64,000 nucleotides of DNA from Bacteroidota bacterium (GTDB lineage Bacteria > Bacteroidota > Bacteroidia > Chitinophagales > UBA10324). Numbering within the stretch: position 1 is the stretch's first letter; the number at the start of each line of letters is the position of its first letter. The position numbers and the translations under genes are program-made. The DNA is taken from assembly GCA_014190575.1 (NCBI GenBank), contig BJGQ01000002.1, positions 1 to 64,000 of the forward strand. Direction: 5' to 3'. Below are positions 20,394 through 25,679 of this stretch, in pieces. The notes under the pieces were generated by a model. That model worked only from the letters and a program-made list of their open reading frames with translations. It had not been told where the DNA came from and made no database searches.

Positions 20394-20561
20394 TTATAAC
20401 TTTTTTCTTTTAGGGCGCGCCAAAAGTAACTTTTGAGGTTGATAATGAGAAGATGAGAAAAATTAGTTTTTTACATGGGTAGTTTGATTTGATTTTTAAC
20501 TACAAAAAGAAGAAAATGCAATAATATTTTTTTATTTAGCCAATGTTTTTACATTACGCCC

Positions 20562-21296
20562 ATGAAAACAACCAAGAAAGCACCTGTGAAGAAGGTTGCT
20601 GCTAAAAAACCCGAAGCAAAAAAAGTGGCGGTTAAAAAAGCCTTAGCAAAAAAAGAAGCAACTAAAAAGCCTGAAGCAAAAAAAACAGAGGTTAAAAAAG
20701 CAGTTATTAATAAAGTTGCTTCAAAGAAACAGGAGATAAAAAAAGTTGAAGCGAAGAAGTCGGATGTAAAAAAAGCTGAACCGAAGAAACCAGCAGTTCA
20801 AAAAGAAGAAAAGAAACCTGCTGCGCCTAAGCCGATTAAGAAAACTTTAACCAAGAAGAAGGAATATAAAGTTGCCGGCCCACCAGCAGTTCCGCTTGCC
20901 ACAAAAATATCTTCGTCAGGTAAAAAATTATATACAATGGAGTTTGTGATAAAAAGTTCTCCGGTCATTTTATATGATTTTGTAACCGCTACATCAAATA
21001 TGGCGCAATGGTTTGCTGATGAGGTTGACCGCAGTCGAGATGATTTATACACTTTCACATGGGATGGAAATTCGCAAGCAGCAATCGTGCTCGATGAAAT
21101 TGAACATGAGTTAGTACGGTATCAGTGGGTTGACGGACCCAAGGATGAATACTTTGAATTCAAAGTAACACACACTGAAATTACAGGCGACACAGTTTTA
21201 ATCATTACCGATTTCGCTCTCCCGAATGATATGAAGGACGCGCAGTTCTTATGGGACAGTCAGATAAAAAATATGATTCAGCAGTTAGGAGCGTAA
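20562..21296 (+). CDS. START-like (START_2/AHSA1-like) domain protein with long Lys/Ala/Pro-rich N-terminal tail
   Basis: aa 1-100 repeat xxxKK with ~5-residue period; then YTMEFVIKSSPVILYDFVTATSNMAQWFADEVDRSRDDLYTFTWDG. Confidence 0.8.
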   Translation: MKTTKKAPVKKVAAKKPEAKKVAVKKALAKKEATKKPEAKKTEVKKAVINKVASKKQEIKKVEAKKSDVKKAEPKKPAVQKEEKKPAAPKPIKKTLTKKKEYKVAGPPAVPLATKISSSGKKLYTMEFVIKSSPVILYDFVTATSNMAQWFADEVDRSRDDLYTFTWDGNSQAAIVLDEIEHELVRYQWVDGPKDEYFEFKVTHTEITGDTVLIITDFALPNDMKDAQFLWDSQIKNMIQQLGA

Positions 21297-21310: not shown

Positions 21311-21346
21311 AAAAACCACATCCTGATTAAGGATGTGGTTTTTTTT
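21311..21346 (+). terminator. Intrinsic terminator
   Basis: AAAACCACATCC-tgatta-GGATGTGGTTTTTTTT. Confidence 0.8.
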
Positions 21347-21950
21347 ATGTTGCTATTTTCTGAAAAAATAAATGTTGCTTAATAAAATAGTCCCCTGCAT
21401 TTTCAATTTTTTCCAGTGGAAGAATAGTTGCCAATTTTAAATATCCGCTTTTTTTAATCATGGTTTCAAATTCATCCGACGAAATATTTTTTATTAAAGA
21501 AAAATAATCTGAGTCTATAGAATGAATCCATCGGTCGTGGTTCAATGAAACAAATATTTCTTTATCAATCAACATTGAATAGTTGGATAAAATAACCGGA
21601 AGAAATTTTTCTAAATCCTTACCTGAAATTAATAGAAAGGTGGCGAGATAATTTCCCCACCAGAAAAAACTTCGAACGGCAAATTGATTTTCATCTTCAA
21701 ATTTTTTTGGAAAATCTAAAATCAGGTAGGGGAGACCTAGGTAATTTTCGCCCTTTGAAATTTTTGGCTCGAATGTTTTCTCTTGTTCATTAATTAAAAT
21801 ATTTTTCCAAGATTTATTCAGCATTTTATTATTTCCAATTTCGCCAAGCAGGTTTGTAATTTTTGAAATAATTTCCCGTTTGACAGAAAAAAAATTGGTG
21901 TTACCAATAGTTATTTTCTCTTCTTCTGAAAGAATTACTTTTGTTTGCAT
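21345..21950 (-). CDS. Hypothetical protein
   Basis: ~200-aa ORF; ATG at 21950 (MQTKVILSEEEKITIGN). Confidence 0.6.
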   Translation of the reverse strand: MQTKVILSEEEKITIGNTNFFSVKREIISKITNLLGEIGNNKMLNKSWKNILINEQEKTFEPKISKGENYLGLPYLILDFPKKFEDENQFAVRSFFWWGNYLATFLLISGKDLEKFLPVILSNYSMLIDKEIFVSLNHDRWIHSIDSDYFSLIKNISSDEFETMIKKSGYLKLATILPLEKIENAGDYFIKQHLFFQKIAT

Positions 21951-21965
21951 CGCAAGCAATATAGA

Positions 21966-23411
21966 TTGAAAAAAATAGACAAACTCGTTCTCTCCAGTTT
22001 CATAGGTCCGTTTATCGTGACTTTTTTTATAACGCTTTTTGTATTGGTCATGCAGTTTTTATGGAAGTATGCTGATGATTTAATAGGGAAAGGGTTGGAA
22101 TGGTACCTGGTGGGAGAGTTGTTGTTTTATGCATCCAGCAGTTTTGTTCCGCTTGCATTGCCACTCGCAATTTTACTTTCTTCAATAATGACCATGGGTG
22201 GTTTGGGTGAACAATTTGAATTGACAGCGTTAAAGGCTTCAGGAATTTCGCTTGTAAGAATTGGTGCGCCATTATTTATTGTAAGTATTGTAATTGGTAT
22301 CTCATCATATCTATTCAGTAATTACATGCAACCTGCATCGTATTTGCAATTTCGCGCATTGCTCTATGATGTTAGTGAACAAAAGCCGGCATTAAATATA
22401 AAGCCTGGTGTTTTTTATAGTGGCATTGATGGATACAGTATGCGAATAGGTAAAAAATTAGCCGACAATCAAACCATTTTTGATGTAATGATTTATGACC
22501 ATACAGATGGAAAAGGGAATACAAATGTATTGATTGCAAAAAAGGGAAAGATGGTTTTAACCGACGACAAGCGGTTTATGATTCTTGAATTGTTCAACGG
22601 AAAACAATATCAAGAAATCACAGATAATCAAAAAAAAGATTTAGCACAGGAGCAGGCGAGAGTAAGTTTCGATTACTGGAAAAAAATATTTGACCTCTCT
22701 GATTTTAAAATGACACGAACTGATGTAAACTTATTTAAAGACAATTACGAAATGATGAATCAGGGGCAATTAGCAAAAGCGATTGATACTTTCGAAATTG
22801 AGAAAAAAAATAATGAAGCGCAGCTGGTTTCATTTGTTAAACCGTACTTATCATTTTTAAAACATAATCTCGATAGTGTTTTTAAAAAAAATAACAGCTT
22901 TCTTTCAGCAGTTGATTCTAGTTTGGCTTATGATAAAAAGACATTGGACGAAAAATCATCAATTATAAATTCAGCTGTAATAAGTATTCGAAATATAAAA
23001 GGATATTCTTCATTTATTTCAGGTTCACAGAATTCAAAAACCGAAATGACACTTCGTTATCAGATTGAATGGTGGAGAAAAATCACACTTGCTTTTGCCT
23101 GCTTGCTTTTGTTTTTAATTGGCGCACCTCTTGGAGCAATTATTCGCAAAGGCGGTTTGGGTTTACCATTTGTAATAGCAGTAGTGTTCTTTGTTTTCTT
23201 TTATATGGTAACGGTATCGGGCGAAAAATTTGCAAAAGAAAAAGTGACTTCAGTATTTACGGGCATGTGGTTATCATCACTTATACTTTTGCCAATTGGA
23301 ATTTTCTTAGTGCGGAAAGCAACCCATGACAGCAAGTTATTTAATCTTGATGCATGGTATGGAATTTTAAAAAAGACGGCAGCAATTTTTAATCGAAGAA
23401 AATCAAGATGA
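21966..23411 (+). CDS. LptF/LptG family permease
   Basis: KKIDKLVLSSFIGPFIVTFFITLFVLVMQFLWKYADDLIGKGL; probable TTG start at 21966. Confidence 0.9.
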   Translation: MKKIDKLVLSSFIGPFIVTFFITLFVLVMQFLWKYADDLIGKGLEWYLVGELLFYASSSFVPLALPLAILLSSIMTMGGLGEQFELTALKASGISLVRIGAPLFIVSIVIGISSYLFSNYMQPASYLQFRALLYDVSEQKPALNIKPGVFYSGIDGYSMRIGKKLADNQTIFDVMIYDHTDGKGNTNVLIAKKGKMVLTDDKRFMILELFNGKQYQEITDNQKKDLAQEQARVSFDYWKKIFDLSDFKMTRTDVNLFKDNYEMMNQGQLAKAIDTFEIEKKNNEAQLVSFVKPYLSFLKHNLDSVFKKNNSFLSAVDSSLAYDKKTLDEKSSIINSAVISIRNIKGYSSFISGSQNSKTEMTLRYQIEWWRKITLAFACLLLFLIGAPLGAIIRKGGLGLPFVIAVVFFVFFYMVTVSGEKFAKEKVTSVFTGMWLSSLILLPIGIFLVRKATHDSKLFNLDAWYGILKKTAAIFNRRKSR

Positions 23412-24070
23412 TTAAAAAAGTTGTTGATCCTGTTCGATTGTTTTTATATAGTTGGTTGTTGTGGTTGGCAGCAGGAATAATCTTATGGTTCATTTTTCCA
23501 AAAGGAGTTTTGGAATTAAAGTGGAATGAACATCATAAAATGTTCTTTGATTATTTTTTTTCAACTATTACGGATTTAGGCAATGGTGTGGCATTCGGAT
23601 TATTTGTTTTGTTGTATCTATTTATTGATCGTCGAAAGTTTTTTATTTCATTAACAGCTTCACTTATTTGTTTATTGATTACTGTTTTAATGAAACAGTA
23701 TTTTTTCAGGGGAGAAAAACGACCGCTTTCTTTTTTTGGCGATTCAGTAAATATTTATTTGCCTCAGGGAGCCACAAAATTATTATTCGGCAGTTATCCT
23801 TCGGGCCACACATTAACTGCTTTTGCCATGTTCATGCTCGCAGCTTTTTTCATGAAGAACAGAATGCTGCAATTATTCTTTTTCGTACTTGCTGCATTGG
23901 TTGGCTTGTCTCGAATTTATTTAATGGCTCATTTTAAAGAAGATGTTTGGACAGGTTCATTGTTTGGAGTGTTAATCAGCATGACTGTGCTTTGCATTTT
24001 TCAATTTTATTTTCCTTTCACAAATACAACTCCACTCATTCGCCTTCAAGGAAATGGTAAAAAGATTTGA
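23408..24070 (+). CDS. PAP2 family phosphatase
   Basis: YPSGHTLTAFAMFMLAAF and LSRIYLMAHFKEDVWTGSLFG; 4-bp overlap with previous gene. Confidence 0.9.
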   Translation: MIKKVVDPVRLFLYSWLLWLAAGIILWFIFPKGVLELKWNEHHKMFFDYFFSTITDLGNGVAFGLFVLLYLFIDRRKFFISLTASLICLLITVLMKQYFFRGEKRPLSFFGDSVNIYLPQGATKLLFGSYPSGHTLTAFAMFMLAAFFMKNRMLQLFFFVLAALVGLSRIYLMAHFKEDVWTGSLFGVLISMTVLCIFQFYFPFTNTTPLIRLQGNGKKI

Positions 24071-25679
24071 CCCTTCCTATTATATAATCACATTGATAGC
24101 GGTGCTTTTGTACTTGCCATTTTTGGGGCATGTGCATTTGTTTGATTGGGATGAAATAAATTTTGCAGAATGCGCACGAGAGATGATTCGCACACAAGAT
24201 TATTTACAGGTGCAAATTAATTTTTTACCTTTTTGGGAAAAGCCACCGCTCTTTATTTGGATGCAAGTGTGCAGCATGAAGATTTTTGGAGTGAATGATT
24301 TTGCAGCTCGATTTCCAAATGCGGTGGTTGGAATTGTTACACTGAATGTATTGTATTCCATTGGTAAAAAAGAATTTAATGAGCGCTTTGCATGGTGGTG
24401 GGTGTGGTGTTATGCAGGAAGTATTTTACCACAATTTTATTTCAAGTCAGGTATTATTGACCCCTGGTTCAACCTTTTTATTTTTCTTTCCATCTATAAT
24501 AATTTTAGATTCGAACAACAAAAATTAATTACTAAACCAGGGTGGAAACATGCTACACTTACTGCTTTGTTTCTTGGATTAGCAGTACTTACTAAAGGAC
24601 CAGTTGCAATAATTATATTTTCACTCTGCTGGATTTTCACGCGTAACACACGATTGGGACGAAGAAATATATTGAACATCGAATTATTATGGATGCTTTT
24701 ACTTCTAATCATTGTATCGTGTTCATGGTTTCTTTTTATCTGGGTCAAAGATGGAAGTGAACAGATCCGGCTTTTTGTTCAATATCAATGGCGCTTGCTC
24801 ACTACTGGCGAAGCAGGCCACGGTCAACCATTCTGGTATCACTGGATTATTTTATTAGTTGGATGTTTCCCGGCATCAGCACTTTTGTTCATGAGAAAGA
24901 AAGATCACGGAGGTGAACTGGAATCTCAACGCGAATTAAAAAATTATATGTGGGTTTTGTTTTTTGTAGTGCTTGTGCTTTTTTCATTGGTAAAAACAAA
25001 AATAGTTCACTACTCATCGTTGTGTTATTTCCCGCTCACATTTATTGCAGCTCGTACCCTTTATCACTTCGCATTGGATTGGAATGGAAAAAAAGTGATG
25101 AATGCTATTTGTTTAGTGATTGGATTACTTATTTCAATCATACTGATTCTTGTTCCATATTTTGGAAGCCACACGAACTTAATTTTAGATTTTATAAAAG
25201 ATGATTTTGGAAAAGCCGCCATTTATGCTTCTGTTAATTGGCAGTGGTTTACTTACCTTCCAGGTTTGATTTTGTTGTTTACCATGCTTTATTCTTTTAT
25301 TTTTATAAAGCGTATACAAAATAGATTTATCACATTGTTTGCTACAAGTATTTTAGTAGTTCAACTTGTTCAATTGATAATTGTTCCGCGCATCGAAAAA
25401 TATTCACAGAGTGCATCGATAGAATTTTATCAATCATTGAAAAATAAAGATGTGGTAGTTGATGTTTATGGATTTAAGAGTTATGCCCAATTGTTTTATT
25501 TCGATAAGCCAAAAGAACATTCACAGCTTCCACTGGATAGTTTATTGTATGGAAAAATAACATTACCTGCATACATTGTAAACCGTACCGATGTGAAGTA
25601 TGATATTACACAATATAAAGAAGTGAAAGAGATTGGTCGGAAAAACGGATTTATATTTTATGTGAGAATGCCAAAGTGA
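24054..25679 (+). CDS. ArnT-like glycosyltransferase (GT39/PMT family)
   Basis: LFDWDEINFAECAREMIRTQDYLQVQINFLPFWEKPPLFIWMQ; multi-TM. Confidence 0.88.
   Translation: MVKRFDPSYYIITLIAVLLYLPFLGHVHLFDWDEINFAECAREMIRTQDYLQVQINFLPFWEKPPLFIWMQVCSMKIFGVNDFAARFPNAVVGIVTLNVLYSIGKKEFNERFAWWWVWCYAGSILPQFYFKSGIIDPWFNLFIFLSIYNNFRFEQQKLITKPGWKHATLTALFLGLAVLTKGPVAIIIFSLCWIFTRNTRLGRRNILNIELLWMLLLLIIVSCSWFLFIWVKDGSEQIRLFVQYQWRLLTTGEAGHGQPFWYHWIILLVGCFPASALLFMRKKDHGGELESQRELKNYMWVLFFVVLVLFSLVKTKIVHYSSLCYFPLTFIAARTLYHFALDWNGKKVMNAICLVIGLLISIILILVPYFGSHTNLILDFIKDDFGKAAIYASVNWQWFTYLPGLILLFTMLYSFIFIKRIQNRFITLFATSILVVQLVQLIIVPRIEKYSQSASIEFYQSLKNKDVVVDVYGFKSYAQLFYFDKPKEHSQLPLDSLLYGKITLPAYIVNRTDVKYDITQYKEVKEIGRKNGFIFYVRMPK

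Follow-up and report, generated by a model that had tools for sequence, protein, structure and literature searches.

The gene at 20562..21296 (+ strand) of the window, the whole stretch of 64,000 nucleotides analysed here, begins with ATG and encodes a 244-residue protein in which a START_2 domain stands behind a long, strongly basic, H1-like tail. The tail is maintained within the genus and has come and gone more than once in the class. For these reasons the lysine-rich arm is likely to anchor the protein to something negatively charged, for instance DNA, RNA or a membrane.

The tail proper (residues 1-93; 20562..20840, + strand) is an array of xxxKK pentads with a net charge of +25, no aromatic residues and no predicted secondary structure. 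A near-periodic xxxKK array over residues 1-100 had been put forward in the original prediction, and inspection bore this out. The array spans residues ~1-100, with KK dipeptides at every fifth residue from 5 to 45, at 55, 60, 65, 70 and 75, and at 84, 93, 98 and 99; the lysine autocorrelation at lag 5 was 30, compared with 14.2 ± 2.4 for shuffled sequences, and 0 of 5000 shuffles reached 30. Tail and linker together (118 aa) contain 35% K, 16% A and 9% P, with a net charge of +30 and 1% aromatics, which is the long, Lys/Ala/Pro-rich, low-aromatic and strongly positive make-up of lysine-repeat or H1-like tailed proteins. The resemblance to histone H1 thus holds for composition, whereas it fails at the level of family. 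No Pfam match to the globular winged-helix domain of linker histones was found in the 244 aa, so that membership in the eukaryotic linker histone H1 family was rejected. The Pfam match of tail residues 3-101 to HC2 (PF07382) scored 33.9 bits, below the cut-off of 40, and the NCBIfam models NF038052 (33.1 vs 80 bits) and NF038053 (23.1 vs 135 bits) also fell below their curated cut-offs, which rejects membership in the Hc2 histone H1-like family. In a full-length model built on a 6-row alignment, where confidence in the domain was low too, the tail was without secondary structure, and pLDDT was 33-48 at residues 1-100. The composition and this low-confidence model suggest that the tail may be disordered.

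The START_2 domain (PF19569; residues 120-244, 20919..21293, + strand) was matched in Pfam with an E value of 3.2e-34 and 118 bits, against a gathering cut-off of 23.6. It is complete, since the match spans positions 3-126 of the 126 in the profile. Completeness had been anticipated, but the onset lies near residue 119 instead of ~110, behind a separate conserved linker (about 94-119). The proposed fusion of a START_2 domain to an H1-like Lys/Ala/Pro tail is real. An AlphaFold model of the domain, based on 95 sequences from START_2 loci, gave pLDDT 96 and pTM 0.88; it is a confident helix-grip (SRPBCC/AHSA1-like) fold, with 2LIO as the best PDB match and AHSA1-like structures following. Six columns (W, F, W, D, W, G) are invariant across the START_2 sequence set. 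The domain was detected in 272 of the 299 genomes of the window's order; when the full-length protein served as query, it was found in 322 of 395 genomes of the class. Although it is present in most genomes searched, our literature search found no paper on START_2 function. We know of no ligand for the family, nor of a nucleic-acid role for it. A search of plasmids returned matches to the bare domain only, in Bacteroides and Phocaeicola.

Comparison of the six genomes of the genus revealed how the tail is maintained. All six carry it, at 79-103 residues, with most KK pairs in one register modulo 5 and lengths that vary by whole units. Among these congeners pN was 0.035 at tail lysine columns vs 0.303 at spacer columns, and 16 of the 26 invariant lysine columns of the tail mix AAA and AAG. 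The dN/dS ratio was about 0.20 for the whole tail, 0.03 for the linker and 0.035 for the START_2 domain, values that are simple Nei-Gojobori counts on related pairs, where synonymous sites are almost saturated, and are to be read as contrasts, not as exact figures. As read from these codons, selection keeps the lysine register and the charge of the tail, while the spacers drift and units come and go. If the array were an artefact or a neutral repeat expansion, it would stem from slippage in AAA/AAG-rich DNA or from a wrongly assigned start codon. The DNA is indeed rich in lysine codons and holds weak tandem repeats with a period of 30 bp, and the congeners differ in length by units, as such an origin would predict. 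The repeats, however, are just 70-75% alike (percentage of matches), the lysine codons are under purifying selection, sequence is conserved right up to the ATG, and tails occur in genomes of 56-67% GC. The first three of these observations argue that the tail is translated and constrained. On the codon-level evidence we reject microsatellite slippage or a wrong start codon, and we regard an artefact of any kind as extremely improbable. The survey of homologues called for by the original prediction likewise speaks against a recent, unconserved microsatellite, because the tail is genus-wide, its lysines are under purifying selection and tails are found in at least 17 families.

The ~43 nt just 5' of the ATG (20519..20561, + strand) are nearly invariant in the six congeners, whereas sequence farther upstream diverges; on this basis the ATG at 20562 was marked as the start region. 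The conserved stretch is likely to be a promoter or translation-start region, and the mRNA may have a very short leader or none at all. Downstream of 20562 the next in-frame ATG encodes M126, within the first strand of the START_2 domain, which together with the codon-level purifying selection on the tail makes a tail-skipping start unlikely. Searches of Rfam near the gene gave sub-threshold chance matches and nothing more. The linker (residues 94-119, KTLTKKKEYKVAGPPAVPLATKISSS; 20841..20918, + strand) is nearly invariant in the genus, with the low dN/dS of 0.03 measured over residues 95-119. The genus form, KTLTKKKEYKVAGPPA[IV]PLATKISS, is as conserved as the START_2 domain though it lies outside the Pfam domain, and other families seem to carry conserved linkers of their own. 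From this conservation, the linker is a possible candidate for a linear or binding motif.

In the window's order, where bare domains are the majority of the START_2 proteins inspected, three families include tailed ones; the family to which the window belongs has tails in 8 of its 16 genomes, all six of the genus included. A full-length query against the class revealed many more, so that there are at least 53 distinct tailed START_2 sequences in all, from at least 17 families and with bare homologues alongside; since the query itself is tailed, tails are over-represented in this sample, and the tailed fraction among the matches listed is not a frequency. The architecture had been called non-standard, and it is not the commonest form in the order, but it is widespread in the class and is no one-off. 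Tail extensions among the matches listed measure 47-375 aa, with net charges of +19 to +92 and aromatics at most a few percent. The genomes with tailed START_2 span 33-67% GC, and at 56-67% GC Arg partly replaces Lys, so that it is the charge, not the AAA/AAG codon, that persists. Pentad spacing as a universal tail feature was ruled out, since the z value at lag 5 is above 3 in just 9 of the 53 tails; the property that they share is net charge.

A START_2 tree of the class rejected a single tailed clade (p-AU 9e-5), and one tailed group inside the window's order was disfavoured (p 0.025). Six changes of tail state occur on the best tree, and at least two are forced by well-supported branches. 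Rejection of a single clade means that gain or loss of the tail has happened repeatedly; how often, and in which direction, is not fixed exactly by the tree, which has 125 columns and is weakly resolved. Since bare homologues are common, the tail is dispensable for basic START_2 function, and its repeated addition or removal makes tailed and bare orthologues comparable for learning where the START_2 protein works. Among START_2 genes of 150 aa or more, 30 of 44 had an H1-like end, compared with 0 of 517 other ORFs of the same neighbourhoods; the START_2 loci were partly picked for tails, so the informative control figure is 0/517. This absence from neighbouring ORFs bears on whether the arm might be generic, an element for solubility, spacing or coacervation with weak contacts to many polyanions. 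The spread of lengths (47 to 375 aa), periodicities that differ by lineage and drifting spacers would suit such an element, but the strict lysine register and the near-invariant linker in the genus speak against it as well, and we consider it quite unlikely.

The gene is followed by a convergent 204-aa ORF (21345..21959, - strand), unassigned to a family and with no match in Pfam or NCBIfam, which adjoins START_2 in 17 loci from 5 families. Beyond it lie genes for an LptF/LptG permease (21945..23411, + strand; a conserved downstream neighbour in 26 loci from 10 families), a PAP2 phosphatase (23408..24070, + strand; undecaprenyl-diphosphatase-like though below the curated cut-off, conserved in 27 loci from 15 families) and an ArnT-like glycosyltransferase (24054..25679, + strand; conserved in 17 loci from 10 families). 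These conserved neighbours, the convergent ORF among them, favour an envelope-lipid role for the START_2 domain. The conserved neighbourhood is one of envelope-lipid genes (LptF/G, PAP2, ArnT-like) and not of nucleic-acid genes, which counts against nucleic acid as the partner of the arm, and it makes attachment to the membrane the main rival explanation. In that case START_2 would be a lipid-binding domain that the arm keeps at the anionic inner leaflet; there it would serve the neighbouring LptF/G, PAP2 and ArnT-like proteins by handling an envelope lipid, of the lipid A or the undecaprenyl-phosphate type. Lipid binding is common among START-fold proteins, and the recurrence of these genes beside START_2 extends across many families. 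In raw counts a PAP2 gene was nearby for 24 of the 40 tailed START_2 genes and for 3 of the 19 bare ones. However, when phylogeny was allowed for, two supported independent pairs remained and showed no trend, so that a link of the tail to its PAP2, LptF or ArnT neighbours found no support, and bare genes have LptF/G nearby at least as often as tailed ones do. The tail also has neither aromatic residues nor a lipid anchor, and the fold is nearest to AHSA1 proteins, not to lipid-transfer START proteins. On balance, we regard membrane attachment as possible but rather unlikely.

Similar tails on other proteins point in another direction. The same genome contains one other Hc2-like match only, an N-terminal H1-like tail on a DksA/TraR-type zinc-finger protein (L058; G000:C43:19860-20195), and tailed DksA-like proteins of similar kind are encoded at L150, L151, L160, L170 and L176. 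In 50 relatives, tailed and bare, H1-like tails were recognisably joined to START_2, DksA/TraR, the ribosomal silencing factor RsfS, and TopA, with small stand-alone H1-like proteins likewise present, in a survey of HC2 matches (several below cut-off) that tailed membrane proteins can escape. The RsfS at L171 has a long N-terminal H1-like tail, and the TopA at L177 a C-terminal lysine-repeat tail. Four Streptomyces proteins, TopA, HrdB, Ku and HupS, are reported to carry lysine repeats, and interaction with DNA depends on the repeats in Ku and HupB (PMC7398561). Tails of this kind on DksA/TraR, RsfS, TopA and the Streptomyces proteins favour nucleic acid as the tail partner. Overall, we put at roughly one in two the probability that the arm, being disordered, acts as an electrostatic tether and so keeps START_2 concentrated on nucleic acid, be it nucleoid DNA or RNA on the ribosome or transcription machinery; both the nucleic-acid partner and the tethering role are what we infer. 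The protein would be cytoplasmic, with its START_2/AHSA1-like domain joined to a long and disordered polycationic arm whose regularly spaced lysine pairs would bind polyanionic nucleic acid with no sequence specificity. The arm would keep the domain concentrated there, as the lysine-repeat tails of TopA, HupS/HupB and PhaF/AlgP do for their proteins. Tethered or not, the domain would function by binding a ligand or a client, which would explain the many relatives that lack the arm. We dropped the idea of a ribosome role drawn from analogy to the START-fold protein RatA, because the toxicity reported for RatA came from a mis-annotated start (PMC11988751).

Polyphosphate is another polyanion that the tail might bind, in granules. 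AlgP, which has a KPAA-repeat tail, associates with polyP granules, and this tail is required for granule positioning; KPAA-repeat peptides, however, bind DNA as well (PMC9239181). Polyphosphate kinase (PPK) is encoded here, in two copies in each of the six genus members, but it is found in 46 of 50 genomes, tailed and bare alike, with no association. Being near-universal in both, PPK co-occurrence is uninformative as a test of polyP binding, and we hold this alternative to be unlikely. A second, divergent polyphosphate-kinase-like gene (G000:C6:34026-34544) is present in all six genus genomes and in the tailed genome G002; bare members of the window's family where PPK was found have one copy.

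To return to nucleic acid, we would tentatively suggest, at odds well short of even, that Bacteroidota have repeatedly tethered AHSA1/START_2 proteins, which are widespread and usually stand-alone, to nucleic acid or the ribosome by giving them H1-like tails, and that this belongs to a broader tendency that takes in DksA-like proteins, RsfS and TopA. If so, START_2 would be an unrecognised component of the transcription or translation machinery in Bacteroidota. H1-like arms could then be a general means by which these bacteria position proteins on nucleic acid. No relevant paper on START_2 or SRPBCC proteins with lysine-rich tails in Bacteroidota was found in the open-access literature. The open-access papers searched seem not to describe START_2 as the folded part of a tailed protein, nor the distribution and recurrent gain or loss of this form; a folded domain with a lysine-repeat tail is already known from AlgP/PhaF, TopA and HupS.

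Among solved structures, 2LIO (Bacteroides fragilis BfR322, PF19569) is both the best structural match and the sole sequence match, but it is a 136-residue chain, whereas the protein here has a 93-residue polycationic tail and a 26-residue linker ahead of the domain. The AHSA1/Aha1-domain proteins 2M89, 8ES5 and 1X53 have the same fold (Foldseek probability 1.00, TM by query 0.60-0.77), with an identity of 13-18%; we know of no H1-like tail in these entries. Actinobacterial TopA, HupS/HupB, Ku and HrdB resemble the present protein in having an H1-like lysine-repeat arm on a folded protein, which aids DNA binding or processivity (PMC7398561), but they are DNA-binding or RNA-polymerase proteins, unlike START_2, which has no known nucleic-acid activity. 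Chlamydial Hc2 (PF07382) shares lysine-rich pentamers and a size that varies by repeat units (PMC2848022), and its HMM matches the tail below threshold; Hc2, however, is a stand-alone DNA-binding protein, whereas the array here is fused to START_2. AlgP and PhaF of Pseudomonas combine a folded or helical part with a long disordered Lys/Ala/Pro repeat tail (net +55 in AlgP, +35 in PhaF; PMC9239181), but in these the tail is C-terminal, consists of KPAA tetrads and is joined to a domain unrelated to START_2, whereas here xxxKK pentads stand at the N-terminus.
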